Origin: Candidatus Eisenbacteria bacterium
Lineage (GTDB): Bacteria > Eisenbacteria > RBG-16-71-46 > JAFGJU01
Assembly (NCBI GenBank): GCA_026388185.1
Contig: JAPLKG010000014.1
Location: forward strand, 62,001 to 126,000
DNA length: 64,000 bases
Direction: 5' to 3'
The notes beneath the pieces are model-generated. The model saw only the letters and a list, made by a program, of their open reading frames with translations. It was not told the DNA's origin and ran no database searches. Shown one piece after another: positions 14,454 through 29,595 of the stretch (the first letter of the stretch is position 1; each line of letters begins with the position of its first letter). The translations under genes and the position numbers were made by a program.

Positions 14454-15013
14454 TGTTGGTAAACCCTTCCGTGGCTATCGGTAGAATATCTTCTGTGGCT
14501 CTATCGGGATCCCTATGTCTCGGTGTTTCGGCGTCTCTGTGTTTCTGTCAGGACAAAATCGTCCTCCAGACCATAACTTCATAGAATAATAGCCCCGAAG
14601 GGCGAAAGTGACAAGAGGTTTGAGGGGGAAAGGGAGCCGAGAGGACCCAGGGCGTGAGGGGGCGCGGAGGGCGCGAAAATGGGCATGCCTCAAGAGGGGC
14701 GCGTGCAAGAGACAGAGATACCTAACCGGCCACGGGATCGTCCCCAATTTGACCAAGTGCACACAAAGGAAGGCCCCCCAGCGTCACACAATGTTCTTGA
14801 CTTCCTCCGTGTCACAGTCGTAGAGTTTTGATACTCGGAACCAGTAACGGGCCGCGGGAAAAACAGGATTATGACGCTACAATCGAGAGAAACGGCTAGG
14901 AGAGGAAGTTTGGGCCGAGCGGCCGCGTTGTTCGGAGTGGATATGCTGCGAGATGGCGCAGTGTTGTTGGATAACGTAGTTCCGCATAATTCATGTTAGA
15001 CGACGATCCAAAC
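14454..15013. other. Non-coding left boundary of the cassette island
   Basis: About 560 bases with no gene that I can support. A purine-rich GGGG-containing stretch spans about 14,600-14,700. At 14971-15001 the sequence ATAACG...CATGTTAGAC ends in a GTTAGAC box that fits the integron R' core GTTRRRY. This is where the first cassette would join, so it is a candidate attI-like or secondary insertion site. No integrase-like reading frame is seen on either strand here or elsewhere in the window. Confidence 0.5.
14971..15001 (+). other. Candidate attI-like / first-cassette junction
   Basis: GTTAGAC at 14995-15001 matches the integron core GTTRRRY and lies just before the first cassette gene. The preceding TTCCGCATAATTC is partly reminiscent of a dif half-site. 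There is no integrase and no fold like the downstream attC sites, so this is tentative. Confidence 0.3.
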
Positions 15014-15112
15014 ATGACAGAAGACCAGAACGCAACAATCAAGGCGCGAGTTCGCGATGCCTACCACTCCCCGCTGCCACTGAGCTGCCCCGTTGGACAG
15101 ATGTGGCAATGA
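15014..15112 (+). CDS. Small ORF overlapping the nuclease-like gene
   Basis: A 32-codon frame beginning MTEDQNATIKARVRDAY and ending GQMWQ. Its TGA overlaps the next ATG (ATGA at 15109-15112), an arrangement typical of translational coupling. No family is recognised. It could be a leader peptide, a small partner of the following nuclease-like protein, or chance. A GTTGGAC box at 15092-15098 lies inside it. Confidence 0.4.
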   Translation: MTEDQNATIKARVRDAYHSPLPLSCPVGQMWQ

Positions 15113-15570
15113 GAGACGAACATTACATTATTGATTTGTGTGACCAAATACTCGGGCAGGAAGCCGAGCGACAGCGAAGGTTCGATTTTCTCCGAGGCGA
15201 TGGGAATCCTGGAAGGAAGCTTCCTGTTGATGCGTATTATCCGATTCTGAATCTCGTGATCGAATACCGGGAAAAACAACACGGCGAACCGGCGGGATTC
15301 TGGGATAAAAGGCCGACGATCAGTGGGATTTCTCGAGGTCGACAACGTTTGAAATACGATAGACGACGACGCCGGGTTCTGCCACGGCATGGCACAGCTC
15401 TTATTGAGTTATCATACGCGGATTTTGAGCACGGCACGGGCAAGCGGCTCCGTCGCAATTCAGATCGAGATAAGAAAGTCCTTCGTGATAGACTATCTAA
15501 GTGGATTGCGATGAAGAAGCACCGTCCAACTCCACGTGCAGCTGGCGGCCGCCGCTCGCGTGTCGATTGA
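15109..15570 (+). CDS. PD-(D/E)XK-like (DUF559/Vsr-like) putative nuclease
   Basis: A 153-residue protein with the pattern LPVDAYYP followed by LVIEYREKQH, which fits the Asp...Glu-x-x-Gln/Lys core of small PD-(D/E)XK nucleases of the Vsr/DUF559 type. The downstream SGISRGRQRLKYDRRRRRVLPRHG is strongly basic and could bind nucleic acid. The family is, from memory, common among cassette-borne unknowns. The start at 15109 is preferred over 15103 because it gives the ATGA coupling with the upstream small ORF. The last 15 codons overlap attC 15524-15621. Confidence 0.6.
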   Translation: MRDEHYIIDLCDQILGQEAERQRRFDFLRGDGNPGRKLPVDAYYPILNLVIEYREKQHGEPAGFWDKRPTISGISRGRQRLKYDRRRRRVLPRHGTALIELSYADFEHGTGKRLRRNSDRDKKVLRDRLSKWIAMKKHRPTPRAAGGRRSRVD

Positions 15571-15621
15571 CACTTGGAGCGGCAGAATCGCGGCGGACCG
15601 CAGCTGACGCTGGCGTTGGGC
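15524..15621 (+). other. attC site 1
   Basis: R'' GTCCAAC (15524-15530) and R' GTTGGGC (15615-15621). The arms ACGTgCAGCTG... and ...CAGCTGACGC pair, with unpaired g/a bases in the left arm. It overlaps the 3' end of the nuclease-like gene. Confidence 0.85.
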
Positions 15622-15657
15622 AACCGGGCCACTTCACGATCGGAACATGAGCTTCTA

Positions 15658-16179
15658 ATGGACAAGTACAGAGATCTTTACAACCTCGCGAAAGAAATCC
15701 ACGCGGAGGAGATTCGGCGTTTCGACCTAGTATCGCAAAAGGCCACCTGGTTCCTAAGCGTGCTGAGCTTCCTTCTTGGTTTAGCTGCACTCTTCGGCAA
15801 GTGGCTGCTCACAACACTCGTGCCGCCGAGGGATGGAATCTCCAGCCTGCTCCTGCTCCTGGGAGGAGTGCTCCTTGCCCTTCTCATTCTTGCCTGGATC
15901 GCTTCCTTTCAGGTGCTTCGTGGTGTCAAGCTAAGCAAAATGCCGCTGAATCAAGAAATGCTGACGTTCTTCGTGAACAACCAGGACATCGATATTCATT
16001 ATGCGTTGGCAAGGAACTACGAACAGGGCCACCGGCACAATAGGCGGGAAACCGACGCACAAACGAAACTCCTAGGCAAGGCGCATACTTTCATCGTACT
16101 GGCTTTCGTCGCCTTTCTTGTTTTCTCGGCCGCCGGCGGCCTCTACGTCTGGTGGCATCCTTCTAATCCAATAAAGTGA
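15658..16179 (+). CDS. Two-TM membrane protein, SLATT-like
   Basis: A 173-residue protein. The N-terminal helix is amphipathic and charged (MDKYRDLYNLAKEIHAEEIRRFDLV). Two closely spaced hydrophobic segments follow at about residues 32-50 and 60-85, then a polar middle, and a third hydrophobic segment at about 140-162 near the C-terminus. The opening resembles the SLATT and Pycsar-type membrane effectors, which form pores when activated in anti-phage systems. This is a resemblance only. The start at 15658 is chosen because upstream codons overlap the attC site. The next gene follows 8 bases after the stop and may be a partner. Confidence 0.5.
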   Translation: MDKYRDLYNLAKEIHAEEIRRFDLVSQKATWFLSVLSFLLGLAALFGKWLLTTLVPPRDGISSLLLLLGGVLLALLILAWIASFQVLRGVKLSKMPLNQEMLTFFVNNQDIDIHYALARNYEQGHRHNRRETDAQTKLLGKAHTFIVLAFVAFLVFSAAGGLYVWWHPSNPIK

Positions 16180-16187
16180 GGCTAGAA

Positions 16188-16457
16188 ATGGCAGAGAATT
16201 CCGGATCCTCCAAGAGCGATAGTGAAGGTAAGGGCGCAGGCGATACGCCGGCGCAGACTCCCTCAACGGCCCCGAATCCTGCGGTGCCCGTACCGATGCA
16301 ACCGGCGCCTGGACCGAATCCAAACGTGGTCGCACCCAATATGGAGCTCGTCACGCACGGCGCGGATGATTCCAAGGTCACTAGAGTCATCATAGGGCCA
16401 CGGGAGCGATCTGATGGCAGGACGAGCACAGGGGACAAGGGCGAGGCAAAAGAGTAG
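16188..16457 (+). CDS. Small Pro/Ser-rich protein of unknown function
   Basis: An 89-residue low-complexity protein beginning MAENSGSSKSDSEGKG, with a Pro/Asn/Ala-rich centre and a short ordered-looking block (NMELVTHGADDSKVTRVIIGPRE). It is not recognised. It sits in the same cassette as the SLATT-like membrane protein, preceded by a TGAGG ribosome-binding site, so it probably works with it. Confidence 0.55.
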   Translation: MAENSGSSKSDSEGKGAGDTPAQTPSTAPNPAVPVPMQPAPGPNPNVVAPNMELVTHGADDSKVTRVIIGPRERSDGRTSTGDKGEAKE

Positions 16458-16467
16458 ACCGAGGCAT

Positions 16468-16535
16468 GCCCAACAACGCCATGAACCCGCTGGTCGCCGC
16501 TTCGCGTCGCCCACGGGTTATGGCAGGCGTTAGCC
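16468..16535 (+). other. attC site 2
   Basis: R'' GCCCAAC (16468-16474); R' GTTAGCC (16529-16535), slightly off consensus. The arms GCCATGAACCCGCTGG and CCACGGGTTATGGC pair, with extrahelical bases in the left arm. Confidence 0.75.
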
Positions 16536-16548
16536 ATCAGGGCCGAGA

Positions 16549-17397
16549 ATGAGATTGAGGAAGTCACAAGCCTATTATGCAAAAGTGAAGAGGGATAAGT
16601 TTGATCTTTGCAATATTTGCAGGAAGCAGGCTTCTCTCTCTTGGGACCATGTGCCACCCCGCGGTGGCATAGAAGTTACTCCCGTCGAGCAAGAAACGAT
16701 CTTGCAGCGTCTTACTGGCAAAGAAAACGAGAAGATTGTACGGATATCTCAAAATGGAGTGAAGTTTCGAACGATATGCGATGGTTGTAATAACACTCTC
16801 CTTGGTCGCAAGTATGATCCAGTGCTCAACGACTTTGCTCTCGGAGTTGGCAGGTTTCTTAACGCTACACTTGAGATCACGCCAATCATTAAGTACGAAA
16901 CAAGACCCAATCTTTTGATTAGGGCCATCGTTGGGCATCTCCTAGCAGCAAAAGGCTATTTTGAAAACACAACGATAGATGAGAAGTTGCGCAACTTTAT
17001 CCTTGATGAGTCTGCTGATTTTCCCGATAATTTAAGAATATTCTACTGGGTTTATCCATATCCTTATGTTGTTGTCATTCGAGACGTTGTTATGCCCGCT
17101 GTACGCGGCAATTTCGGGACAAAGAGCTGTTTCAGTATTCTAAAATATTTTCCAATTGCGTATTTGGTCTGTGATCTTGCTCATTATGAGGGATTGGACG
17201 ATCTCACTTTCTATTATGATGAGAACTCCTCTAAACTAGTAAATATTCCAATAAAGCTGAGACAAGTCAAACATCCTGAGTGGCCAGAACTTGTTGACGA
17301 TACAAATTTTATGGTCGGTGGGCAGAGCTTCAAGAGCTCACTATTTGCCACACCAAGATCAATACTGGCTAACAAGACAAATGCAGCCGACCGCTAA
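16549..17397 (+). CDS. HNH-like Cys-rich protein, low G+C
   Basis: A 282-residue protein. The N-terminal zinc-ribbon/HNH-like region is CNIC (about 21-24), then SLSWDHVPPRG (a His in the DH motif), and CDGCNNTLLGRKYDP (about 77-91). This matches the Cys/Asp-His/Cys-Cys arrangement of HNH endonuclease folds with structural zinc. The remaining 190 residues match nothing I recognise. Codon use is clearly A/T-richer than in the flanking genes, which is a sign of recent acquisition from another host. It is the sole gene of its cassette. Nuclease activity is an inference from the motif alone. Confidence 0.55.
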   Translation: MRLRKSQAYYAKVKRDKFDLCNICRKQASLSWDHVPPRGGIEVTPVEQETILQRLTGKENEKIVRISQNGVKFRTICDGCNNTLLGRKYDPVLNDFALGVGRFLNATLEITPIIKYETRPNLLIRAIVGHLLAAKGYFENTTIDEKLRNFILDESADFPDNLRIFYWVYPYPYVVVIRDVVMPAVRGNFGTKSCFSILKYFPIAYLVCDLAHYEGLDDLTFYYDENSSKLVNIPIKLRQVKHPEWPELVDDTNFMVGGQSFKSSLFATPRSILANKTNAADR

Positions 17398-17425
17398 CCG
17401 CGGCGGCTGATTTGCGGCGTTGGGC
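17367..17425 (+). other. attC site 3
   Basis: R'' GGCTAAC (17367-17373) and R' GTTGGGC (17419-17425). The arms CAAATgCAGCCGaCCGC and GCGGCGGCTGATTTG pair around a TAACC loop. It overlaps the end of the HNH-like gene. Confidence 0.85.
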
Positions 17426-17459
17426 GGCAGCATCTGACGACTCCTGAAGGGCTTGCACA

Positions 17460-18017
17460 GTGGGTAACGAAAATGATGTTTTTGAGTGGCGGCGATTTGG
17501 ACATTGGCGGTCCAGCGCAGCGAAGGCCCGTTTCTCAGCCTATGTGCTTTGGCATATGCGAAGCGATTCGCGGCTTGTCGAGATGGCACGCGAATGCGGT
17601 CATTTGGGCGGTGATTTCGAGCTTGGAATACTGGAAGCGTTTCGCCGCGAGAGCGCTGTCGCGCTTGAACTCGTCGTCAAAGCCGTAATTGCAAATACGC
17701 TCCAAGCAAGAGCAGTCGATTCCGCAACCGAAGACGTTCCTGCAACACATGACCTACCGAAACTCTGGAAACAAGCCAACCTTCCCGACCTACCACGCGA
17801 AGATCGCTATCGCCTTCAACTTGTGAAGTCAGTGCTAATGTGGTCTGGTAGATACGCTACACCTCGTACCGTCAAAGCTTGGAAAGAAGAAAACAAAGCC
17901 TTCGACGCACTGGAGGAGCCACCAGCGAATGCGGGCAAATTCATATTCCGAACACCTGTCACTATCGGCTGGGTCGAATTTGATCGGCTATACCAAATTG
18001 CTCACGGCTTTCTCTGA
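17460..18017 (+). CDS. HEPN-like protein, unknown function
   Basis: A 185-residue, mostly helical protein starting at GTG. The middle stretch ALELVVKAVIANTLQ, followed by THDLPKLWKQANLP, resembles HEPN/AbiV-type helical domains, where an HDLxxLW turn recurs. No classical RxxxxxH catalytic motif is obvious. It is the single gene of its cassette. HEPN proteins serve in toxin-antitoxin and anti-phage systems, often as RNases, but this one may be inactive or only HEPN-like. Confidence 0.45.
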   Translation: MGNENDVFEWRRFGHWRSSAAKARFSAYVLWHMRSDSRLVEMARECGHLGGDFELGILEAFRRESAVALELVVKAVIANTLQARAVDSATEDVPATHDLPKLWKQANLPDLPREDRYRLQLVKSVLMWSGRYATPRTVKAWKEENKAFDALEEPPANAGKFIFRTPVTIGWVEFDRLYQIAHGFL

Positions 18018-18052
18018 TGACATGCGAAAAACATTGCGCCTTGCAATATGCC

Positions 18053-18119
18053 GCCCAACCCATCAATCCACCGGACCTGCGCGAAAAGCCGCGCAGGCCG
18101 GTGATTTCAAACGTTATCT
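18053..18119 (+). other. attC site 4
   Basis: R'' GCCCAAC (18053-18059); R' GTTATCT (18113-18119). The arms AATcCACCGGaCCTGCGCG and CGCGCAGGCCGGTGATT pair almost perfectly, apart from the two extra left-arm bases. Confidence 0.85.
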
Positions 18120-18133
18120 CGGTGAGATTTCGC

Positions 18134-18162
18134 TTGACACGTATGTATTGTTGATGCATATT
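18134..18162 (+). promoter_or_regulatory. Sigma70-type promoter of vapBC, leaderless
   Basis: TTGACA at 18134-18139, a 17-base spacer, and CATATT at 18157-18162. The vapB ATG at 18170 falls at the predicted transcription start, so the mRNA would be leaderless. Confidence 0.6.
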
Positions 18163-18169
18163 AATCTGC

Positions 18170-18370
18170 ATGAGAACTACACTCAACATAGATGGTGGGC
18201 TTCTCCGCGAGGCCGCCAAACTTACTGGTGTTAGCGAGAAAACGTCTCTTGTCCGCATGGGATTGGAGGCGCTGATAGCGATGGCCAGTGCTCGCCGGCT
18301 TGCGAAACTTGGGGGGACAGAGAGGGATTTGAGGTCGGCCCGTAGGCGACGGGCGCGAGTTGTCGCATGA
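18170..18370 (+). CDS. vapB: VapB-type antitoxin (ribbon-helix-helix)
   Basis: A 66-residue protein. MRTTLNIDGGLLREAAKLTGVSEKTSLVRMGLEAL is the typical MRTTLxIDxxLLxxA ribbon-helix-helix DNA-binding start of VapB/DUF2191 antitoxins, followed by a basic C-terminal tail that should cap the toxin. Its TGA overlaps the vapC ATG by four bases. It binds and neutralises VapC and probably represses the promoter directly upstream. Confidence 0.82.
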   Translation: MRTTLNIDGGLLREAAKLTGVSEKTSLVRMGLEALIAMASARRLAKLGGTERDLRSARRRRARVVA

Positions 18371-18729
18371 TACTGGTGGATACGTCAGTATGGGTAGAAC
18401 ACCTTCGTGCGGGAAACGAGCATTTAGGGGTCCTCCTGCTGAAGGGTCAGGTTGTCACCCATCCCTTTGTGATAGGCGAGTTGGCGTGCGGTAATCTGCG
18501 TAATCGTGGGGAGATACTAAGGCTCTTGGCGGCATTACCTCGAGTCCCGGTTGCTGAGCACGAGGAGGTTGTGCGTTTTGTGGCTTCCAGGCGGCTTTAC
18601 TCCCGTGATCTGGGGTGGGTGGATATTCATTTGCTTGCTTCAGCTCTGCTTGCCGGCTGCGGTTTGTGGACTCTCGATGAGGCACTGAAACGGGCAGTCT
18701 TGCATCTGAAGTTACCGGCATACCATTGA
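18367..18729 (+). CDS. vapC: VapC-type PIN-domain toxin
   Basis: A 120-residue PIN ribonuclease. The acidic quartet for Mg2+/Mn2+ is intact: D5 (ILVDTS), E38 (IGELACG), D86 (WVDIHLLASA) and D104 (TLDEAL). VapC toxins cleave tRNA or rRNA when free of VapB. It is translationally coupled to vapB through an ATGA overlap. The pair fills one cassette closed by attC 18734-18797. Confidence 0.88.
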   Translation: MILVDTSVWVEHLRAGNEHLGVLLLKGQVVTHPFVIGELACGNLRNRGEILRLLAALPRVPVAEHEEVVRFVASRRLYSRDLGWVDIHLLASALLAGCGLWTLDEALKRAVLHLKLPAYH

Positions 18730-18733
18730 GACA

Positions 18734-18797
18734 AGATAACAGGCCGTTGGAGCCGACGTCGTGCTTCGCGTGCCGCGGCTCATCGGCAGCGTTCGAC
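18734..18797 (+). other. attC site 5
   Basis: R'' AGATAAC (18734-18740); R' GTTCGAC (18791-18797). The arms GCCGTTGGAGCCG and CGGCTCATCGGC pair, with one extra G on the left. Confidence 0.7.
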
Positions 18798-18826
18798 GAA
18801 CAAGAAGCATAAAGGTGGACTGAACC

Positions 18827-19687
18827 ATGTCAACTCGTCAGGCAGACCTACCGCCTAGCGTTCTTTTTGTGTCTAAGCTTAACACGCGAACCGATCTCAA
18901 CGCAGGTCAAGAAGACTCTGGAATCGACGAACTGGCTGCCAGTATTGGAGAAAATGGGTTACTGCAACCTATCACCGTTCGACCAGTTTCCGGAGGGCGT
19001 TATGAAGTCGTTATCGGTCAGCGTCGCTTCCTGGCCTGTAAGAGGGCGGGGCTTGGCAGCATTCCCTGTCTAGTACGTGATGACCTCGCCGACGCCGACG
19101 CGGTGACTATCTCGCTCGTGGAGAACGTCCACCGAGCTGACATGAGTCCCCTTGACAAAGCGCGCGCTCTTAAGTCGCTATACGATCGTCACGACTCATA
19201 CGAGAAAGTGGCCAAGGAGACCTCGTGGTCCACCAAGACAATCCGAAAGTACATGAGCCTTCTGGACCTGCCTCGGGACTTGCAGCAGAGAATTGGTACT
19301 TCTGACGGTCCCTCTGGCGTCGGCGCACTTGCACGTCTCGCCAGAACTTTCTCGGGTCAGCAAGCGAGTGACGTGTACGAGAGGATAGCTGGCTTCAGGC
19401 AGCCTATACAGGAGGAAATCCTGAAGCGGAGCGGCGGCGACATCCTCAAGGTAGACGAGCTAGTCGAAGAGGCCATGGAAGGCGCCTTTGATACACGCAT
19501 ATGCGGAGGCCGTTTCAAATGCGAGGTAATCCGCGACCTTCTTGAGGGGCAAATCACCCGCGGAGATTTCGAGGACCTAGTAAAGGAAGTTGCCCAAAAC
19601 GTCGGTTCTGATGTCAAGAGGGGCGCTCTTCGAGAGGCTGCGCGCAGCTTCTGGAAAGCCCTCGCCTCTGGAAAATCCAAACCTTGA
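18827..19687 (+). CDS. ParB/RepB-like nuclease-domain protein
   Basis: A 286-residue protein. The N-terminal ParB domain has the C-motif-like GQRRFLACKRAG at about residues 63-74 (GERR in chromosomal ParB) and ENVHRADMSPLDKARAL at about 97-113, followed by a helix-turn-helix (YEKVAKETSWSTKTIRKYMSLLDLP). The C-terminal ~100 residues are unknown. True ParB partners (ParA, parS) are not beside it, so a plasmid-partition role is unlikely. Cassette-borne ParB-like CTPase/nuclease proteins occur in defence and phage contexts. It is the sole gene of its cassette. Confidence 0.78.
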   Translation: MSTRQADLPPSVLFVSKLNTRTDLNAGQEDSGIDELAASIGENGLLQPITVRPVSGGRYEVVIGQRRFLACKRAGLGSIPCLVRDDLADADAVTISLVENVHRADMSPLDKARALKSLYDRHDSYEKVAKETSWSTKTIRKYMSLLDLPRDLQQRIGTSDGPSGVGALARLARTFSGQQASDVYERIAGFRQPIQEEILKRSGGDILKVDELVEEAMEGAFDTRICGGRFKCEVIRDLLEGQITRGDFEDLVKEVAQNVGSDVKRGALREAARSFWKALASGKSKP

Positions 19688-19691
19688 GTTC

Positions 19692-19750
19692 GCCGAACCA
19701 GCGGCTGGAGCGGACGGAGAAACCCCCGCCGCTCACCCGCAGCGTTCGAG
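19692..19750 (+). other. attC site 6
   Basis: R'' GCCGAAC (19692-19698); R' GTTCGAG (19744-19750). The arms GCGGCTGgAGCGGaCGG and CCGCCGCTCACCCGC pair, with the recurrent extra g and a. Confidence 0.75.
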
Positions 19751-19768
19751 CCAACAAGGAGACCGAGC

Positions 19769-20200
19769 ATGAAGAGGTCACAGCATCACACCGCATGGGC
19801 TGGTGCACTCGCCGTCGCGGCTGAGCTCTCGCGGCGCGGTTATGACGCCTCAATCACGCTCGGCAATACGCCGGCCCTTGATCTCCTGTGCTCATCACCT
19901 GCTGGCGAGCCGTTCAAGGTTCAGGTCAAGAGTTTGACTGCGCCAAACTGGGTGCTGATCCGAAAGGACATGCTTGAGCCACCGGTGCAGAAGAAGCTCT
20001 TCTTCGCCGTAGTGTTGGTCCCTGCCGAAGACGACAGGCCATTCGAGTACCACCTGCTGACGCACGCCGAGGTCTGCGCGCTACGGAAGGAGCAGCGTAC
20101 GGTCAGGAAGGACGGTCGGCCGTACAAGCCGGGTATGGATGGCCTTTCGTGGGGCCAGGTGAAGCCGCACGCTGGCGGGTGGCACAAGCTACCCGAGTAG
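19769..20200 (+). CDS. PD-(D/E)XK-like putative nuclease
   Basis: A 143-residue protein. The fold core is suggested by AAELSRRGYDASITLG (helix and strand), then PALDLLCS, and FKVQVKSL, giving the D...QVK arrangement of restriction endonuclease-like enzymes and DUF4365-type proteins. The C-terminal half has no recognised motif. It is a single-gene cassette between two attC sites. Catalytic activity is an inference. Confidence 0.55.
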   Translation: MKRSQHHTAWAGALAVAAELSRRGYDASITLGNTPALDLLCSSPAGEPFKVQVKSLTAPNWVLIRKDMLEPPVQKKLFFAVVLVPAEDDRPFEYHLLTHAEVCALRKEQRTVRKDGRPYKPGMDGLSWGQVKPHAGGWHKLPE

Positions 20201-20209
20201 CACTTGTGG

Positions 20210-20297
20210 CTCGAACAACGGGATGCAGCTGACGGCACAGAGGTCGTAGGCGAAACTGAAAGCCAGTGCGCCGCAGCTGATCCCGCACACGTTATGT
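20210..20297 (+). other. attC site 7
   Basis: R'' CTCGAAC (20210-20216); R' GTTATGT (20291-20297). The arms CGGGATgCAGCTGaCGGC and GCCGCAGCTGATCCCG pair, with the characteristic extra g and a. Confidence 0.78.
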
Positions 20298-20332
20298 GTC
20301 CTGGCGCACCCTAAATCGCTTCGTGGTGCTAG

Positions 20333-21262
20333 ATGGAAACGATTTCAGACCTAGAGCAGCACATTCGAGACTTTATTAACAGCCCCCGCAAGCAGTATGC
20401 ACTTCTGCAAAGTCAAGCTGCGTGGAACATGCTTTGTAGCTGTCTTGACCTGATTGGTGATACGGGACTGGCTCTTGATGCATACGTGAAGCATGAGGAA
20501 GCAGAAAATTACGGTGGGAAGTATCTGCTCATATACGGCGTCCTTCAAGCGTTGTTCCTTCAGCAGGATGCAGTGGAGAATCTCTGCGAGGCCCTGAAGC
20601 TTGATTACACACCGGACCCACTACTTAACGAGATTCGAGAAATTAGGAACGACAGCACAGGCCATCCTACAAAAAGAGGTGGCGGACAAGGCCGAACCTT
20701 CAACTTCATATCGAGGATCAGCTTGAGTAAAGTAGGTTTCGACCTTATGAAAACTTACCCAGAAGACCGAACGCCTTTCTTTCAGCATGTCAGTATCCCG
20801 TCGCTCGTTGCGAGACAGCGAGAAATTCTCCAGAGAACCCTTTCCGCAGTGGTGGACAAATTGCAGAACGAAGACACAGAGCACAGAGAACAATTTAGAG
20901 CTGAAAAGCTCCAAAACCTCTTTCTCTCCACGGGCTACTACTTCCAGAAAATGCTAGAGGCTATACGCGGTGGCCCTGCCGTGTTTGGCACTGCCCATAT
21001 AAAACTCATCGCAGAAATAATCGACGCGTTCAAGAGCGCTCTCACGAAACGAGGGGAACTAGAGGCGTGCGACACCGTCACATACTTCCTAAATCTGCTT
21101 GAGTACCCTATGGGGGAACTGACTACATACTTCAATTCACCAGATCAACCACGCCTGAACGAGAAGAGTGCATGCATCTTCGTTTTTTTTGTCGAGAAGC
21201 ATGTCGATGAACTAAGGAGAATAGCGCGGGAAATGGACGAAATCTACGAATCCAAGCCTTGA
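20333..21262 (+). CDS. HEPN-domain protein with intact RNase motif
   Basis: A 309-residue helical protein. IREIRNDSTGHPTKR places R105 and H111 in the R-N-x(4)-H pattern of HEPN ribonuclease active sites. The N-terminal 100 residues are helical with hydrophobic pairs (LALDAYVKHEEAENYG, LQALFLQQDAVENLC) typical of this group. The C-terminal 190 residues are unknown. HEPN proteins act as RNA-cleaving toxins or abortive-infection effectors. It is a single gene in its cassette, with no adjacent MNT-type antitoxin. Confidence 0.62.
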   Translation: METISDLEQHIRDFINSPRKQYALLQSQAAWNMLCSCLDLIGDTGLALDAYVKHEEAENYGGKYLLIYGVLQALFLQQDAVENLCEALKLDYTPDPLLNEIREIRNDSTGHPTKRGGGQGRTFNFISRISLSKVGFDLMKTYPEDRTPFFQHVSIPSLVARQREILQRTLSAVVDKLQNEDTEHREQFRAEKLQNLFLSTGYYFQKMLEAIRGGPAVFGTAHIKLIAEIIDAFKSALTKRGELEACDTVTYFLNLLEYPMGELTTYFNSPDQPRLNEKSACIFVFFVEKHVDELRRIAREMDEIYESKP

Positions 21263-21269
21263 CACGACC

Positions 21270-21357
21270 ACATAACAAAGCAGTAGAGCCGATCGCCTCC
21301 AGCGTCCGCTCGTTCCTCGCTCCCGCTTCCGGCGGCGGCTCACCGTTGGCGTTAGGT
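21270..21357 (+). other. attC site 8
   Basis: R'' ACATAAC (21270-21276); R' GTTAGGT (21351-21357), full consensus. The arms AGAGCCGaTCGCC and GGCGGCGGCTC pair, and a second near-palindrome lies in the loop. Confidence 0.8.
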
Positions 21358-21391
21358 GCACAGGGGCTGCGCGCTAATACATATAATAATA

Positions 21392-23421: not shown

Positions 23422-23428
23422 CAGCTAC

Positions 23429-23557
23429 GTCTAACTCTCGCTGCAGCGGACAGCGGAGAGGGGAAGCCCCCGCGCATTCCATGAGCGCCACTTACTGGAA
23501 CGACGATGAGTGAACCCTTCAGCCTTTTCCCCGCTGCCGCTGAGCTTATCGTTAGGT
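23429..23557 (+). other. attC site 10
   Basis: R'' GTCTAAC (23429-23435) and R' GTTAGGT (23551-23557), both full consensus. The arms GCTgCAGCGGaCAGCGG and CCGCTGCCGCTGAGC pair. It has a long variable terminal structure, 129 bp overall. Confidence 0.88.
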
Positions 23558-23579
23558 GATCAGATACACGGAGGAAGAG

Positions 23580-24212
23580 ATGCACGAAGTATCTTCATTC
23601 TTTCGAGATTTTGCCCCGTTTCTTGCGGCCCTTGGCACGTTCCTGATCGGGCTAGGCGCTGTCATCCGCGCACTTCGAGACCGGAGAAAGAGGAGGCGTG
23701 AGCCAATGTCAAAGCCGAAATTCATCGAAAAGACCATGTGGATTCTTGGAATCATATTCATTTGCGTCTCGGTTGCTCTTTTTGCTGTCTGGGCAGCAGA
23801 ACTGAAATCGCAACCCAAGAATGTTGCGCTCACCACTGCCGCCTGGAACGCATTCAATGCCGGAAACTATCCTTTGGCCATATCAAAAGCACGGGAATGT
23901 ATTGACGAATTCCGAGGAGCTGCCGATCGCCAACAGGCCAAACTTGAAAAACAGAAAGTCTCTTCTCCATCTGAAGGTAGGGTTGGGCAGACCGAAAGGC
24001 AGAAGATCTTAGCCCGTGGCCCACTCAACGATGCCGCCACCTGCTACTATGTCATTGGCAGGTCTGCAGAATATCTGAATAAGCTTGATCTCGCCAAGGA
24101 AGCCTATGAGAACGCAACCCGCTATACATACGCTCGCACATGGGATCCGGCAGGACAATTGTTTTGGTCTCCGGCAGAAGCGGCAAGTGATCGTTTGGCG
24201 GGTCTAAAGTGA
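23580..24212 (+). CDS. Two-TM protein with TPR-like soluble domain
   Basis: A 210-residue protein with a hydrophobic segment at about residues 10-30, a basic loop (RDRRKRRREP), a second hydrophobic segment at about 53-75, and then a soluble helical part. Segments such as AWNAFNAGNYPLAISKARECIDEF and YLNKLDLAKEAYENATRY look like TPR helices. A GGAGGAAGAG ribosome-binding site directly before the ATG at 23580 fixes the start. The function is unknown. It is a single-gene cassette. Confidence 0.55.
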   Translation: MHEVSSFFRDFAPFLAALGTFLIGLGAVIRALRDRRKRRREPMSKPKFIEKTMWILGIIFICVSVALFAVWAAELKSQPKNVALTTAAWNAFNAGNYPLAISKARECIDEFRGAADRQQAKLEKQKVSSPSEGRVGQTERQKILARGPLNDAATCYYVIGRSAEYLNKLDLAKEAYENATRYTYARTWDPAGQLFWSPAEAASDRLAGLK

Positions 24213-24237
24213 TTCTCGAGCGCTTCTATGTGCTCTC

Positions 24238-24302
24238 AGCTAACCCGCCCATGGACCTGACGAGCGGCCCGGCTGCCCGCAGGTGATGGACATTCGTTAG
24301 AC
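24238..24302 (+). other. attC site 11
   Basis: R'' AGCTAAC (24238-24244); R' GTTAGAC (24296-24302), consensus. The arms CCATGgACCTGaCG and CGCAGGTGATGG pair, with the extra g and a. Confidence 0.8.
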
Positions 24303-24349
24303 AGACAAGCTCTGTAATCGGTTCTGAAGTTGGCTATTTCGGAGATGCC

Positions 24350-25177
24350 ATGACCCGCCGCCTAACAATCTTTCTCGCGGCCTCCTTTCTGGTCACATGG
24401 ACCTGTTGGGGGATCTTGGTGCCACTGGCTCGCGCACGGACAATGGTCTACGGCCAGCCGCCTTTCATGTGTCTTTACATGCTCGGCGGCCTGGGACCGA
24501 CCATTGCCGCCTACATAGCGGTGCTGGCTACACGGGCGCAATCGCCCCTCGGGGAGTTTCACTCGCGACTTTTCCGCTGGAGAGTTGCGGGGTGGTGGTA
24601 CGTCATTGCAGCTGCGCTTCCCGCGGCTCTTGCTCTGGCGTCGGTGGGCGTTGCCGTCTTAGTTGATCCTGATTTCCTGAGGGGATTGTCCGTGCGGCCT
24701 TGGTACATGCTCGTCCCCCTCTTTTTCGTAATGGTCGGTGGCGGCGGCCTAGAGGAACTCGGCTGGCGGGGGATCGCTCAGCCCGAGATGGAGCGGTGCC
24801 TTCGCCGTCCGACCGCCGCGGTGCTGGTCGGCCTGATCTGGTCCCTATGGCATCTTCCGCTGTTCGTCCTTCCCGGCGTCGGGCAGTATGGGACCAACTT
24901 CCCTGTGTTTGCCATCGGGCTTGTCGGTGAAGCCCTGATCTTGGCTTGGCTTTATGGTCGTACCGAGAGCATTCTCCTCTGCATTCTCTTCCACGCCGGC
25001 TGGAATGCCGTTGCGACCCTTGGCTTGGCAATTCCGTCCGACCAGCGTCTGCTGGCCGTGCTGGATGCGTGCCTCAGGGTGGTCGTTGGCGCACTTCTTC
25101 TGGCCGTCGGTTCGGCGCTGTCTGACAAGCGCATGGAGCCCACGGCGCCCAGCGCGATCATGGAGCGCCGCGGCTGA
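24350..25177 (+). CDS. CPBP-family intramembrane metalloprotease
   Basis: A 275-residue membrane protein with about seven hydrophobic segments. Conserved CPBP (Abi/CaaX-like) motifs: EELGWR (E135, E136, R140), LWHLPLF (H168) and FHAGWN (H215, N219), which are the membrane-embedded glutamates and histidines that bind zinc or act in catalysis. Homologues process prenylated proteins or bacteriocin-related peptides. The substrate is unknown. Its last codons form the left arm of attC 12. A second, related cassette copy lies at 28289-29110. Confidence 0.8.
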   Translation: MTRRLTIFLAASFLVTWTCWGILVPLARARTMVYGQPPFMCLYMLGGLGPTIAAYIAVLATRAQSPLGEFHSRLFRWRVAGWWYVIAAALPAALALASVGVAVLVDPDFLRGLSVRPWYMLVPLFFVMVGGGGLEELGWRGIAQPEMERCLRRPTAAVLVGLIWSLWHLPLFVLPGVGQYGTNFPVFAIGLVGEALILAWLYGRTESILLCILFHAGWNAVATLGLAIPSDQRLLAVLDACLRVVVGALLLAVGSALSDKRMEPTAPSAIMERRG

Positions 25178-25193
25178 AGCACTGGCGTTAGAA
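25121..25193 (+). other. attC site 12 (overlapping gene end)
   Basis: The arms GCGCATGGAGCCcaCGGCGC and GCGCCGCGGCT...TGGCGTT pair. R'' is degenerate (TCTGACA at 25121-25127) and R' is GTTAGAA (25187-25193). Confidence 0.6.
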
Positions 25194-25237
25194 GCGGTGT
25201 GGGATCTTTTCCCTTTTGAAGATGAAAGGAGAGCGAT

Positions 25238-25462
25238 ATGCCAACAATCAGAGTGACGGTTCTTCGCGATGGTGAGCCAGTCAGCGGACATCGTGTCGCT
25301 CTTAGTTTCAGTGAAGGGACGTCAGATCCGGAATACACAGATGCCGATGGCGTTGCCGAATTCGATGTGGAATACGGGCAAGAAGGCGACGTATTCGTGG
25401 ACGGTCGCAACGTTGACAGTTGGGGCTCGTACAGTGCGACCGACATAACGGTAGAGCTTTGA
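25238..25462 (+). CDS. Small beta-rich (Ig/CNA-B-like) protein
   Basis: A 74-residue protein. The sequence RVTVLRDGEPVSGHRVALSF, then YTDADGVAEFDV and GDVFVDGRNV, has the pattern of a short transthyretin/CNA-B-like beta sandwich, without a signal peptide. The function is unknown. It is preceded by a GAAAGGAG ribosome-binding site and fills a short cassette. Confidence 0.5.
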   Translation: MPTIRVTVLRDGEPVSGHRVALSFSEGTSDPEYTDADGVAEFDVEYGQEGDVFVDGRNVDSWGSYSATDITVEL

Positions 25463-25485
25463 TATCTTGTAGTTCCTATGTTAGC

Positions 25486-25533
25486 TTCTAACCTGCCGCT
25501 GCAGCCGGCCGCACTACCGGCTCAGCGTAGGAG
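25486..25533 (+). other. attC site 13 (short, altered R')
   Basis: R'' TTCTAAC (25486-25492). The arms CGCTGcAGCCGG and CCGGCTCAGCG pair. R' reads GTAGGAG, one T short of GTTAGGAG, and continues straight into a toxin remnant. Confidence 0.65.
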
Positions 25534-25640
25534 ACGTGCGAGTGTTCTATGACGTAACGGAGGGGACGGTAGAGATTCTTGCGGTTATCCTTAAGTCACA
25601 GGCCAGTAGATGGCTGGAAGAGAAAGGTAAGCATTCATGA
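25533..25640 (+). pseudogene. 3' remnant of a RelE/ParE-type toxin gene
   Basis: Reading from the attC junction, the frame gives DVRVFYDVTEGTVEIL, a lysine-serine stretch and WLEEKGKHS, then TGA. This is the C-terminal third of a RelE-superfamily toxin (compare GDYRVFYDV-type endings). There is no start codon and the 5' two-thirds are missing, cut at the attC core. The TGA overlaps the ATG of the antitoxin (ATGA, 25637-25640), so the original operon order was toxin then antitoxin. Confidence 0.72.
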
Positions 25641-25882
25641 GGAAGGTAGCTCTTTCAACCATGAAGGATGATCTGTCGCGTTTTCTTCGTCTCGCGGAGA
25701 AGGAGCGGATTATCATTACTCGTCATGGGAAGCCCGCTGGGGTACTTATTGGTTTCAAGACTGAGGACGAGTGGTTTGAATACAGGATGGAGAACGATCC
25801 TCGTTTCTTAAAGCGGATTGCCGCTGCACGTCGCAGTCTCCGCGCAGGCCACGGTGTGCAACTTGAAGCAGCCGATGTGTGA
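25637..25882 (+). CDS. Phd/YefM-type antitoxin, orphaned
   Basis: An 81-residue protein. MRKVALSTMKDDLSRFLRLAEKERIIITRHGKPAGVLIGF is the typical Phd/YefM fold, with the ITRHGKPxAVLI turn. It overlaps the stop of the truncated toxin by four bases. Because that toxin has lost its N-terminal two-thirds, the antitoxin is probably orphaned. It may still protect against related toxins or autoregulate. The cassette closes with attC 14. Confidence 0.78.
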   Translation: MRKVALSTMKDDLSRFLRLAEKERIIITRHGKPAGVLIGFKTEDEWFEYRMENDPRFLKRIAAARRSLRAGHGVQLEAADV

Positions 25883-25892
25883 GCTCATGGAT

Positions 25893-25952
25893 GCCCAACC
25901 TGCGGCATGGAGCGGACGGTCTAACGCCCGCCGCTCATACGTAACGTTATGC
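25893..25952 (+). other. attC site 14
   Basis: R'' GCCCAAC (25893-25899); R' GTTATGC (25946-25952). The arms GCATGgAGCGGaCGG and CCGCCGCTCATACG pair, with the recurrent extra g and a. Confidence 0.8.
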
Positions 25953-25980: not shown

Positions 25981-26283
25981 ATGGAACGAAGAAATTGTTG
26001 GGAAGCGATGAAGTGCGGAAGGCCGCCGGGGGGTGAAAATGCAGAGAAACTTGGCGTATGCCCAGCGGCATTGCCCAATGAATATTTTGATGGTGTCAAT
26101 AACGGCAAGCATTGCGGTAGGCTTTGCTGGGCGGTTGTGGGAACTCTCTGTGGAGGAAAAGTGCAGGGTACATATGTAGAGAAGCTTGGGGATTGTCTTC
26201 GCTGTGAGTTTCTAAAGCAGGTGAATGAAGATGAAGGTCGAAATTTCATTCTAACTTCCAAACAAGCTAAGGGTAAATCATAG
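25981..26283 (+). CDS. Cys-rich two-CW domain protein
   Basis: A 100-residue protein. The pattern NCWEAMKCGRPPGG...GVCPAA...CGRLCWAVVGTLCGGKVQGTY...CLRCEFLKQV is that of the two-CW domain, a cysteine/tryptophan domain often appended to bacterial sensor proteins, probably binding a metal or iron-sulfur cluster. Here it stands alone. An AAAGGAGG ribosome-binding site precedes the ATG. I find no convincing attC between it and the next gene. Confidence 0.72.
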   Translation: MERRNCWEAMKCGRPPGGENAEKLGVCPAALPNEYFDGVNNGKHCGRLCWAVVGTLCGGKVQGTYVEKLGDCLRCEFLKQVNEDEGRNFILTSKQAKGKS

Positions 26284-26346: not shown

Positions 26347-26865
26347 ATGAGACTTTCCACAACTGATTTGGAGATTGAAGTGCGCGCAGGAACGGTTGAA
26401 GACATCCCATTGCTAATGTCATTCATACGGTCAATGGCGGAATACGAGAAACTTCAGGTTACTGCAACAGAGCACATCCTTCAGGAGTCACTCTTTGGCG
26501 AGCACCCTGCCGCATATACTTTGCTTGCCTTTGTCGATGGCAGACCCGTTGCCTATGCTGTTTATTTCTTCACTTTTGCCACTATGGCTGGAAAGCGCAG
26601 CCTCTGGCTGGATGACTTGTTCGTGACCCCGGACTTTCGCGGGAAAGGTATAGCCACGGCTTTGATGGCCTATTTGGCGGATGTCGCGATTCAAAACAAG
26701 TGCGGCCGCTTTGAGTGGATGGTGCTTGAGTGGAACGAATCGGCCATTGGTTTCTACGAGAGGCTGGGCGCAAAGGTTCTCACAGAGTGGCGCATTCATC
26801 GCTTGGAGGAGGCTCAACTGCCGCGCGTTGCCAGCAAGTTGGCAATTGCCAAGGGCGGCGGCTAA
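26347..26865 (+). CDS. GNAT acetyltransferase, SSAT-like
   Basis: A 172-residue GNAT resembling diamine/spermidine N-acetyltransferases. MAEYEKLQVTATEHILQESLFG, LWLDDLFVTPDFRGKGIATALM (the acetyl-CoA pyrophosphate loop RGKGIA) and FEWMVLEWNESAIGFYERLGAKVLTEWRIHRL match that family's layout. It would transfer acetyl from acetyl-CoA to a small amine; the substrate is unproven. It is one of three GNAT reading frames in the island. Its stop lies inside the R'' core of attC 15. Confidence 0.78.
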   Translation: MRLSTTDLEIEVRAGTVEDIPLLMSFIRSMAEYEKLQVTATEHILQESLFGEHPAAYTLLAFVDGRPVAYAVYFFTFATMAGKRSLWLDDLFVTPDFRGKGIATALMAYLADVAIQNKCGRFEWMVLEWNESAIGFYERLGAKVLTEWRIHRLEEAQLPRVASKLAIAKGGG

Positions 26866-26930
26866 CACGCGCTTTCACCCGACGTTGCTCCGCTGCGCCC
26901 CGCAAGGCGGGTGAAGCGCTGACGCTGGGT
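26860..26930 (+). other. attC site 15
   Basis: R'' GGCTAAC (26860-26866). The arms GCGCTTTCACCCGaCGTTGC and GCAAGGCGGGTGAAGCGC pair. R' is GCTGGGT (26924-26930), one base off GTTGGGT. Confidence 0.75.
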
Positions 26931-26944: not shown

Positions 26945-27406
26945 ATGAAGATCAGGTCCATGACAGCATCAGATGAGCCGGCTGTCCGTGAAGTAGTCGC
27001 CGGACTCTCCGATTGGTTCGATGATGATGCCCGAACCAGATCAATTCCCGTCGACCTGAAGCATCACACGACCTTTGTTGCGGACAAAGGCGATGATGTA
27101 GTTGGGTTCATCGCGCTCCACGTCTACAACGGCAGACTGGATATCAGCTGGATGGGTGTACGAAACGATTACCGCGGCAAAGGAATCGGAACCCTGTTAC
27201 TTCACCGAGCCGAGGAGCTTGGAAGAGCATGGGGATTGCGTGAGCTGACAACCTTCACCCTCGGCGATACCGTTGAGTATGAACCCTATGAATCGACGAG
27301 GCGCTTTTATCTGAAGAACGGGTTCGAGGTTTACCAGAGGAATCAAACCGACAACCCGGGATGCCCTGAGGAGTGGAGACTGAAGAAACAGATCGTCCAG
27401 CCATGA
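26945..27406 (+). CDS. GNAT acetyltransferase
   Basis: A 153-residue single-domain GNAT. Strand beta4, DISWMGVRNDYRGKGIGTLLLHRAEE, contains the acetyl-CoA loop RGKGIG. The C-terminal FYLKNGFEVYQR is the usual motif B. The family member and substrate are unknown. Its last four codons overlap attC 16. Confidence 0.78.
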   Translation: MKIRSMTASDEPAVREVVAGLSDWFDDDARTRSIPVDLKHHTTFVADKGDDVVGFIALHVYNGRLDISWMGVRNDYRGKGIGTLLLHRAEELGRAWGLRELTTFTLGDTVEYEPYESTRRFYLKNGFEVYQRNQTDNPGCPEEWRLKKQIVQP

Positions 27407-27464
27407 GGTGGAGTTTACGTTTTGCCCGTGGCGGGCAGAACGAAACTCACCTCTGACGTTAGGA
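27395..27464 (+). other. attC site 16
   Basis: The arms GAGGTGgAGTTTaCGTT and GAACGAAACTCACCTC pair well. R'' is GTCCAGC (27395-27401, one base off AAC) and R' is GTTAGGA (27458-27464). The TTA of R' also provides the stop codon of the minus-strand antitoxin. Confidence 0.75.
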
Positions 27465-27797
27465 TGCTGTAGCTCTGTGTGGCAATGAGATGATCTTTGC
27501 TATCTCGCGGCTCGAAACTCCAAGAGCAAGGAGGGCCCGAATGAGCAAGTCCAATGTCACGGACGGGTCGCCGGCTTCCATCTTGGCTACCCGGGACTGG
27601 CTGGACTTGACTAGGCGCGCCAATCCATGCTGGGTCAGACGTCTCCGCTGTCTTCGCGCCTTCAAATTGTTTGCAAGCCTTACCTTGAGCTCGACGTATG
27701 CAGCCTCCTTCGGGGAAAGCCCTAGGAACTCCGCAGCCGTGCCGAAGCGCCAGCCCTTTGACTCCAGGCGTTTTCTCTTTGACTCACGCATTGTCAT
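27459..27797 (-). CDS. higA: HigA-like XRE antitoxin
   Basis: A 112-residue protein. The Cro/C1 helix-turn-helix is RRLTQHGLARLVKSSQSRVAKMEAGDPSVTLDLLIRALLALG at about residues 52-93, preceded by a helical region (SPKEAAYVELKVRLANNLKARRQ). It is the antitoxin of the module with the HigB-like toxin, which ends 14 bases into it. It is the only cassette module in the island on the minus strand. It is transcribed from its own promoter at 28126-28154. Its TAA stop is complementary to the TTA of the attC 16 core. Confidence 0.78.
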   Translation of the reverse strand: MTMRESKRKRLESKGWRFGTAAEFLGLSPKEAAYVELKVRLANNLKARRQRRRLTQHGLARLVKSSQSRVAKMEAGDPSVTLDLLIRALLALGVSSREIAKIISLPHRATAS

Positions 27798-28117
27798 AAC
27801 TCCTAAGCCGACGTTTACACGTCTCTATAGCCTCCGTTGCGGTCCGAGATGTCTTCTTGTTGAAAACCTCCACGATAACGATCGCATCTGGGTCGATTCG
27901 GTACATAACTCGCCAGGTCATACCTGCATCGTTGATCCGCAGCTCGTAACAACGCGGACCGATCAGGGGGCATGGGCCTCGCGTGCGGCAGGTGCAACAT
28001 GTCTCCCTGCTGGAGCCTTCGCAGGAGATACCCCGCCTCAAGCCGCCCCTGTTTAGAAAAAGGGGGAGACTTGACTTCTCCGTGTACCCAGACTAGTGGT
28101 TTGACGTTCGCATTCAT
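27784..28117 (-). pseudogene. higB: HigB / phage Gp49-like toxin with a +1 frameshift
   Basis: Two overlapping frames together encode one full toxin. The first (from ATG at 28117) gives KPLVWVHGEVKSPPFSK, ...LLRRLQQGDMLHLP and HARPMP. The second gives LIGPRCYELRI, WRVMYRIDPDAIVIVEVF and a basic C-terminus. Together they match the HigB/Gp49-like RelE-fold toxins from end to end (about 110 residues). They are split at a run of five G on the plus strand (27966-27970). Four bases would restore the frame. So the toxin is broken by one extra base, unless this is a sequencing error or a slippage site. Confidence 0.72.
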
Positions 28118-28173: not shown

Positions 28174-28265
28174 TCCTAACCCGCCGCTGCAGCTGGCCGC
28201 AGCCCGTCCTGGAGATGCAGTCCGTGCTGGCGGCATGTGCGACGGCTGAGCCATCATCGTCGGGC
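28174..28265 (+). other. attC site 17
   Basis: R'' TCCTAAC (28174-28180). The arms GCTgCAGCtGgcCGC and GCGACGGCTGAGC pair partly. R' is GTCGGGC (28259-28265), one base off GTTGGGC. Confidence 0.6.
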
Positions 28266-28288
28266 GGCCCACTCTGGAGGTATTCACA

Positions 28289-29110
28289 GTGACATCACCT
28301 TTCTCTGAGTGGATGAGACGACATCCAGTAATTTCCTTCTACGTGTTGGCTTTCGTCATCTCGTGGTTGGGTTGGGTCCCGCAGGCCGCGTATTCGCGCG
28401 GTCTCTTTCCAATCCAAAGCCCGCTCTTCATTTTGCTTGGCGGTGGCGGACCGACCTTCGCAGCACTCATTGTTACACTAGTCTTGGCCGGGAAACGTGG
28501 CGTTCGAGAGTTGTTCGCGCCATTACTCCGGTGGCGAGTTAGCGTTGTTTGGTATTGCGTCGCGCTATTCTGGCAGCCTGTGATTCTGCTTGCCGTAGTC
28601 GGCCTGGATATGTTCCTAGGCAAGCCAACGCCTGACTTCGGATTGGTCGGCCCGTGGTTTATCGTCTTATCCATGTTTCTGACCTACTTGCTGTTCAACT
28701 TATGGGAGGAAGTGGGCTGGCGCGGGTTTGCATTACCGAGGTTACAAGCTCGCCACAGCGCGCTCCTCTCCAGTCTGATCATTGGTGTCTTGTGGGGCTT
28801 GTGGCATTTGCCGCTTTTCCTGGATAGGAGCAATCCGATGTCCACTTTCCCCTTCCCTGCGTGGTTTATCGGAACCGTTGCCTCCGCAGTCTTATACACA
28901 TGGCTCTACAACAATGCGAAAGGCAGTTTGCTCATCGTCAGTCTGTTCCACGCCGCGGGGAATACAGCCACCGCCGCGATTTTTGTAGCTTTCGGTCGCG
29001 TTATTTCTGTCCAGGATTTTCTCTTAGTGACTGGAATGACCTGCCTCGCGGCCATCATAATCGTCGCCGTGTTCGGACCAGCACGCCTTTCGCGACAAAC
29101 GGTTCCTTGA
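28289..29110 (+). CDS. CPBP-family intramembrane metalloprotease
   Basis: A 273-residue polytopic protein starting at GTG after CTGGAGG. The catalytic motifs EEVGWR (E140, E141, R145), LWHLPLF (H173) and FHAAGN (H221, N225) are intact. It is clearly related to the protein at 24350-25177, with the same domain plan and motif spacing, but in a separate cassette. It is probably a CaaX-like or bacteriocin-immunity-type protease; the substrate is unknown. Confidence 0.8.
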   Translation: MTSPFSEWMRRHPVISFYVLAFVISWLGWVPQAAYSRGLFPIQSPLFILLGGGGPTFAALIVTLVLAGKRGVRELFAPLLRWRVSVVWYCVALFWQPVILLAVVGLDMFLGKPTPDFGLVGPWFIVLSMFLTYLLFNLWEEVGWRGFALPRLQARHSALLSSLIIGVLWGLWHLPLFLDRSNPMSTFPFPAWFIGTVASAVLYTWLYNNAKGSLLIVSLFHAAGNTATAAIFVAFGRVISVQDFLLVTGMTCLAAIIIVAVFGPARLSRQTVP

Positions 29111-29243
29111 CATGGACTCGTCCTGGAACAGCAAGATGCTTTGTGCGCTCAAGTGGTGGGGTATACTATCCAGCTTTTCTCCCTTTCAAGCTGCTCAAAA
29201 ACCGTGAACCGGTCAGTTTGACTATTGAAGCAGGAGGAAGGAT

Positions 29244-29483
29244 TTGAAAAAGGTTTTCACGAGTATAAACCCAATGGAATGCAGTTTTCGTAAGACAATC
29301 CTAGAATCTCATGGTATCCGGTGTATGATTAAGAACGAGTTACTCTCACCGCTAGGGGGCGCAATACCGGCACCAGAGGTATGGCCCGAACTGTGGATTC
29401 TTGCTGACGAGAGAATTGAAGAAGCAATTCAGCTTCTTGATGTCGAAGAACAAGACAAAGGCTCTTCTACCGAATGTAAATAG
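29244..29483 (+). CDS. DUF2007-type small protein
   Basis: A 79-residue protein starting at TTG behind AGGAGGA. KKVFTSINPMECSFRKTILESHGIRCMIKNE, then PELWILADERIEEAIQLLD, has the pattern of DUF2007 (putative signal-transducing domain: an addressing strand, then an ...A..LL... helix). The function is unknown. A possible -10 (TATACT, about 29163) lies upstream. It is closed by attC 18. Confidence 0.68.
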   Translation: MKKVFTSINPMECSFRKTILESHGIRCMIKNELLSPLGGAIPAPEVWPELWILADERIEEAIQLLDVEEQDKGSSTECK

Positions 29484-29488
29484 AAGCC

Positions 29489-29595
29489 GTCTAGCGATGC
29501 GCTCGACCAGCCCGACTGCTCCGCATTGAGAGAAGGCGTTGTGGTCATCGGCTGTATTGCTCCGCAGTCGACAGGTGAGCGCCACACCGTTGGGC
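29489..29595 (+). other. attC site 18 (last clear site of the array)
   Basis: R' GTTGGGC (29589-29595) is consensus; R'' is GTCTAGC (29489-29495). The arms GCGCTCGACCAG...CGACTGC and GCAGTCGACAGGTGAGCGC pair. Confidence 0.7.

Follow-up and report, generated by a model that had tools for sequence, protein, structure and literature searches.

An integron cassette array without a detectable integrase, and a dispersed repeat resembling attI, in the genome of an Eisenbacteria relative

In integrons, the integrase IntI recombines the folded bottom strand of the attC site of a circular cassette at the G^TT of the core GTTRRRY. Its partner is a double-stranded attI or another attC, and cassettes are added in one orientation. 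Here, we describe an integrase-less integron cassette array (CALIN) in a 64,000-nt stretch of DNA (the window, positions 62001 to 126000 of contig C14) from a bacterial genome (G000; 2.62 Mb, 20 contigs, 97.9% complete), together with a repeat, dispersed over the same genome, that ends at a GTTRRRY-like core. A CALIN array accompanied by multiplied attI-like repeats is, in our judgment, the likely explanation of the data as a whole. CALINs are more abundant and more widespread among bacteria than integrons bearing intI (PMC9668308), and they have already been documented outside Proteobacteria (PMC9024848, PMC9668308), so that the array alone is less remarkable. In mobile integrons, 26 Delta-attI-type cassettes have been described that are bounded on their 3′ side by an attI-derived site, have a variable left extent, and recombine with IntI1 (PMC12901181). 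The superintegrons of Vibrio contain gene-less promoter cassettes, short segments lacking an intact open reading frame (ORF) that lie between cassettes and supply a promoter to the next gene (PMC11014356). Secondary integration sites, or attG (Loot et al. 2024), are described, where they are cited in PMC11023631 and PMC12901181, as highly divergent from classical att sites.

Between 15.0 and 28.3 kb, the window is a CALIN of some 17 to 20 gene cassettes, most of them ending in an attC that folds as a single strand. A covariance model (R1) built only from 13 attCs of plasmid class 1 integrons, and fully independent of this genome, gave 36 to 72 bits for most of its own plasmid attCs and missed some with long hairpins. 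Run on both strands of the window with filters off, R1 found nine matches at an E value of ≤0.13 (36.6 to 15.8 bits), starting at 17367, 18053, 16468, 19692, 25893, 18734, 21275, 24238 and 25120. All were on the + strand and within 16,468-25,952, and the next score, 12.6 bits, was noise. A second model (R2), trained on plasmid, class-relative and other own-genome sites with no window site among them, lends support to about 14 sites, the first starting at 15,524 and the last ending at 27,464. It added 15,524-15,621 (31.8 bits), 20,210-20,297 (28.0), 27,395-27,464 (18.8) and 26,860-26,930 (16.7), with weak support at 25486 and 28174. When folding was compared with dinucleotide shuffles, the z score was below −3.7 in 7 of 16 candidate sites (−3.8 to −5.4, at 15524, 16468, 17367, 18053, 19692, 20212 and 27395), while pairs of R and L boxes were scored by the covariance model. 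At 18734, 21270, 25120 and 26860, the fold was no better than that of shuffles (z ~0 to −0.7), and these sites are based on sequence and model. For 23,429-23,557, the evidence consists of perfect R boxes and the fold. Core counts were rejected as evidence of attC: GTTRRRY occurs at nearly equal frequency on both strands inside the array (1.05 per kb on +, 1.13 per kb on −), without strand bias, which makes cores alone weak evidence. Rfam at gathering thresholds gave no match in the window. Outside the class, 12 of 52 genomes had an R2 match at an E value of ≤0.01, an upper bound on the false-positive rate, as real CALINs may account for some of the matches, and single weak attC sites should be read with care.

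The original prediction of an integrase-less array thus held up, with nine independent-model sites in 9.5 kb, where two attCs no more than 4 kb apart would suffice for a CALIN, about 14 sites with R2, and no IntI over the cut-off. Most of the sites listed there did not fall below threshold in the covariance search, and the outcome named as speaking against an array did not occur. Its count of about 18 sites was slightly high: some 14 to 15 are credible, 10 of them strong. The proposal of a common orientation for sites and genes is correct for every supported site, all on +, and for nearly all ORFs, the departure being a two-gene toxin-antitoxin unit on the opposite strand (27,459-28,041). From the proposed extent, 15002-29595, the left part stands and the right edge moves to nearer 27.5 to 28.3 kb: the end at 29,595 has no model match and a fold z of +0.83, and there is no supported site from 28.3 to 29.6 kb. 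As had been proposed, no tyrosine recombinase lies within the array, and it is a complete CALIN rather than a truncated view, since it lies in the middle of a 341-kb contig.

The features of the array are, in order:
14984 to 15001, +: left-edge GCATAA-N5-GTTAGAC, possible degenerate attI-like left and right arms (sole match in the window, 0 in 100 shuffles; pattern chosen post hoc)
15106 to 15570, +: cassette ORF, 154 aa, no Pfam family
15524 to 15621, +: attC, 98 nt, perfect R″/R′ boxes (z −4.85; 31.8 bits R2)
15601 to 16457, +: two-ORF cassette, membrane protein and small ORF
16468 to 16535, +: attC (27.8 bits R1, E 7e-5; 38.1 R2; z −3.76)
16549 to 17397, +: cassette ORF, 282 aa, no convincing family
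17367 to 17425, +: attC, 59 nt (36.6 bits R1, E 3e-7)
17460 to 18017, +: cassette ORF, 185 aa
18053 to 18119, +: attC (33.8 bits R1, E 1.7e-6; z −5.26)
18174 to 18729, +: VapBC-like toxin-antitoxin cassette, PIN domain at 18367-18729 (PF01850, 8e-11; antitoxin by eye)
18734 to 18797, +: attC (22.6 bits R1; 37.5 R2)
18827 to 19687, +: ParB/RepB-family cassette gene (PF02195, 4e-20; TIGR00180 above cut-off)
19692 to 19750, +: attC (26.3 bits R1; 50.9 R2)
19769 to 20200, +: cassette ORF, weak PD-(D/E)XK resemblance (E 0.006, below cut-off)
20210 to 20297, +: attC (28.0 bits R2; z −4.64)
20333 to 21262, +: cassette ORF, 309 aa, no family assigned
21270 to 21357, +: attC (35.8 bits R1 in the whole-genome search)
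21426 to 21966, +: BrnTA toxin-antitoxin cassette (PF04365, 4.5e-18; PF14384, 0.0018)
21923 to 21981, +: degenerate attC candidate (11.9 bits R1, noise level)
21997 to 22584, +: HNH-like cassette ORF (PF01844, 0.0035, below cut-off)
22660 to 23421, +: cassette ORF, 253 aa
23429 to 23557, +: attC candidate, 129 nt, perfect R boxes (z −2.35; no model match)
23556 to 24212, +: cassette ORF, TPR-like
24238 to 24302, +: attC (16.0 bits R1; 26.2 R2)
24350 to 25177, +: CAAX-protease (Rce1-like) cassette (PF02517, 2e-17)
25120 to 25193, +: weaker attC (15.8 bits R1; 17.9 R2)
25238 to 25462, +: small cassette ORF, Ig-like
25486 to 25542, +: degenerate attC candidate (13.3 bits R2)
25637 to 25882, +: Phd/YefM antitoxin cassette (PF02604, 2e-10)
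25893 to 25952, +: attC (23.8 bits R1; 41.4 R2)
25981 to 26283, +: cassette ORF, 100 aa
26347 to 26865, +: GNAT acetyltransferase cassette (PF00583, 5.5e-20)
26860 to 26930, +: weaker attC (16.7 bits R2)
26945 to 27406, +: GNAT acetyltransferase cassette (PF13508, 1e-15)
27395 to 27464, +: attC, degenerate left box (18.8 bits R2; z −5.38)
27459 to 28041, −, opposite to the array: HTH antitoxin and Gp49/ParE-like toxin (PF01381, 1.4e-9; PF05973, 7e-10)
28174 to 28265, +: degenerate attC candidate, likely right end (17.1 bits R2)
28289 to 29110, +: CAAX-protease gene, possible last cassette (PF02517, 3.6e-15; no attC found 3′ of the gene)

This content is typical of cassettes, with toxin-antitoxin pairs, GNATs, ParB, CAAX proteases, an HNH-like ORF and many unknowns. 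The host, judging by its RpoD, is an Eisenbacteria relative rather than a proteobacterium, as had been suspected: the same-family genome G001 and the metagenome-assembled genome "Candidatus Eisenbacteria Zod_Metabat.294" gave an identical match at identical coordinates. G001, whose pckA is 76% identical, was considered as an empty site and rejected. Synteny breaks just past pckA and attC is absent there, so G001 offers no clean empty site, and the right flank is not comparable because the cytochrome gene bordering the array is absent from the relatives.

A search of the rest of the genome for intI, as had been suggested, was negative: TIGR02249 gave 14 partial matches genome-wide, none above the cut-off, in a genome that is 97.9% complete. 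The matches are XerC/D-like proteins, an IS91-associated integrase and four paralogous XerD-like recombinases, and all of them skip model positions ~180 to 237, a stretch covered by true IntIs. A 281-aa recombinase on C1 (94 and 75 bits to TIGR02249) was rejected as IntI; the stretch specific to IntI is missing from it, and an IS91-type Y2 transposase lies next after it. Among 99 compared genomes, 16 had a strong IntI match, most of them from the same class, where relatives carry attCs as well, and neither of the two same-family relatives had an intI over the cut-off.

The genome contains at least 12 attC loci, the main array and eleven more. Outside the array, R2 found C8:510-517 kb (at least six sites), C17:202 kb (two) and 45.8 kb of the window, as well as single or paired sites on C2, C5, C8:219 kb, C10, C11 (two), C18 and C19, among them the solitary attC at C2:28812. 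The C8:510-517 kb locus is a second CALIN (L053, covering G000:C8:508000-522000, at 2343-9260, minus strand) whose defence-like cassettes encode SEFIR/TIR, protein kinase, REase-ARP and 8xMP-like proteins; the SEFIR protein, which has a weak macro-domain match, and the protein kinase resemble anti-phage proteins. Two class relatives (G012 and G023) have 9 to 11 attC matches each, spread over almost as many contigs, which suggests that dispersal of cassettes may be frequent in the class. The smaller cluster of the window (45232 to 48300, within 45.2 to 48.3 kb) lies outside the interval of the original prediction and comprises an attI-like repeat, a first ORF, a 240-aa ORF, a small membrane ORF and a RelBE-like pair, with these features:
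45232 to 45307, +: copy of the dispersed attI-like repeat ending in GTTAGCA, left end of the cluster (E 1.7e-11 with the repeat model R3, see below)
45322 to 45831, +: first ORF, no family assigned
45841 to 45901, +: attC (30.4 bits R2, E 1.2e-4)
46573 to 46668, +: attC candidate (fold scan only)
47396 to 47469, +: attC candidate, R boxes ACCTAAC/GTTGGAT (13.7 bits R2)

The left ends of this cluster and of the C8 array have in common the sequence CTTATCTSGAAACGNCATGANCNGTAGTT. A pattern search with it found nine places, and the reversed-pattern control found none. By eye, no compensatory changes keep the hairpin in the repeat, which was therefore modelled as sequence only (R3). R3 found 26 copies at an E value of <1e-3 in this genome (about 27 in all) and none in 98 other genomes; none was found in plasmids and viral contigs. 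Examples are the copies at C10:120775 and C8:517188 of this genome. When the copies are aligned on the core, conservation is mostly 1 to 2 bits per base over the 30 bases before GTT, stays raised through base 7 and then falls to ~0.0 to 0.3. The core consensus is GTT, R or C, G, mostly R, and C, with G in 24, T in all and T in 24 of the 27 copies at the first three positions and never T at position 4. This is the profile expected if the sequence to the right of the core had been joined at an integron R box. The left end of the repeat varies and the right end is fixed, and the ORFs 3′ of the copies show no homology to one another. For ten of the 12 attC clusters, a repeat of the same strand is no more than 2.7 kb away, compared with a mean of 0.25 and a maximum of 4 in 20,000 random placements. 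In attI1, the layout of left arm, short spacer and GTTRRRY is as in the repeat; the sequence is otherwise unrelated.

Many copies have TTGACA-17-TATGCT or TATCTT upstream, a consensus match and predicted strong promoter, located in several of them behind a terminator hairpin. Copies of type I, for example the module at C19:13168-13361, add such a hairpin and the 3′ end of a 182-aa gene, gene X (L009:11057-11605, L183, L185, L186, L187 and L189), for which no family was found above the cut-off. Intact or almost intact copies of gene X lie at C1, C11 and C13, and a long one at C19; elsewhere it appears as 3′ fragments of variable length between cassettes. Several of the fragments begin near residue 147, immediately after an R box like that of attC. 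The end of contig C18 and the start of C19 both fall within gene X, and a larger array may accordingly have been broken by the assembly.

These observations suggest that the repeat is the attI, or Pc-attI module, of this lineage, itself multiplied, and we favor this identification as the more probable one because it is consistent with the core and its boundary, with the lack of relatedness among the downstream genes and with the association with attC, and because the layout of attI1 is alike. The array would have been laid down by integron-integrase recombination in a genome now without a detectable integrase, which may have been lost or have acted in trans; in either case, the array could be mobilized by a foreign IntI only. 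Cassettes would then sit at many attI-like sites, some ending in such a site instead of an attC, and the dispersed sites, often within promoter modules, would make up a variant of integron architecture without intI. A speculative extension, possible at best, is an integron-like system whose repeated unit is the attI-like site rather than one platform: dozens of mobile terminator-promoter-attI modules, distributed over the chromosome, would each capture cassettes and express them individually, with recombination supplied in trans by an IntI or by a XerD-like enzyme of the host itself.

Several observations weigh against this interpretation. R3 has no match at the left end of the main array. Most repeat copies are without a detectable attC within the next 2.5 kb. 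The repeat was not seen beside intI in the three class relatives inspected (L141, L142 and L150), nor elsewhere in the 98 genomes, and so has no anchor to a known attI. One copy, as read by eye from the translations, lies between dnaJ and rpoD (L184, ~7795-7835; G000:C11:340794), with no obvious cassette adjoining. An intI may also have been missed, the draft being in 20 contigs, some of them broken inside a repeated gene.

The copy upstream of rpoD, the position of the repeat between promoter and start codon and the small hairpin within it (ACGGCATAAGCCGT) would also suit a conserved promoter or leader element, that is, a regulon of accessory genes with incidental proximity to attC. We regard this as improbable, since conservation stops abruptly at the 7-base integron core, the left end varies while the right is fixed, copies carry 3′ fragments of one gene and a terminator, and the association with attC clusters is strong. 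Somewhat less improbable, although still unlikely, is that no integrase of the lineage ever acted on the array, whose cassettes would have come from other integrons and been integrated at secondary attG-type sites through IntI in trans. The lack of an intI over the cut-off in this genome and its two same-family relatives agrees with it, as do solitary attCs such as C2:28812, whereas the arm sequence common to many attCs (GGAGCGGACGG...CCGCTC) and the conserved attI-like repeats argue for a resident platform.

The resident XerD-like recombinases, rather than a lost IntI, might act on the repeats and perhaps on attC, which would make this an integron-like system working with another enzyme. The four paralogues of this 286-aa protein, on C1, C11 and (two) C14 (L009:4317-5177, L012:6044-6901, L013:7465-8193 and L014, C11:17545-18402; one is N-terminally truncated), each have a repeat copy at a distance of up to about 7.5 kb, from which they are divergent, and the two on C14 adjoin a repeat and diverge from it as intI does from attI. 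Against their involvement, which seems quite remote to us, the paralogues match XerD/XerC best, skip the IntI-specific stretch and sit in mobile-looking units of ~1.1 kb. A 3.3-kb duplication of 84% identity (L012 6242-9500 and L013 7534-10815) carries the recombinase and a large secreted-looking protein, and because it is common to both C14 neighborhoods these are not independent.

Taken alone, the array is a further CALIN, from an uncultured phylum. Should the repeat be attI, this genome would depart from the usual scheme of a single integrase with a single attI and a single array: its landing sites would have increased in number, come with promoters of their own and persisted after the integrase was gone. 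Large-scale movement of attI within cassettes and expression of cassettes in integrase-less genomes would then become testable. The system may also stockpile defence genes, as some of the C8 cassettes resemble anti-phage proteins.

In a literature whose coverage is incomplete, we found no chromosome described as carrying multiplied attI-like sites. Known CALINs have almost 6 attC sites on average, compared with about 14 in the main array, and unlike a single CALIN, this genome has several CALINs and solitary attCs without a detectable intI, most of them beside a common repeat. The attG sites, divergent as they are in the passages that cite them, could explain solitary scattered cassettes; the sites here form a conserved repeat family instead. 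If the repeat, which is found between genes of cassettes and has GTTRRRY at its end, is attI, its copies would bound cassettes on the 3′ side, with variable left extent, as in the Delta-attI-type cassettes (PMC12901181); those 26 are spread across mobile integrons, whereas about 27 attI-like copies occur here on one chromosome without intI. Like the promoter cassettes of Vibrio (PMC11014356), the segments between cassettes lack an intact ORF and carry a predicted promoter for the next gene; unlike them, they are one recurrent module of gene X 3′ debris, terminator, predicted promoter and attI-like end. The main array belongs to a known class, and the genome-wide arrangement would be a new variation on it if the attI reading holds.

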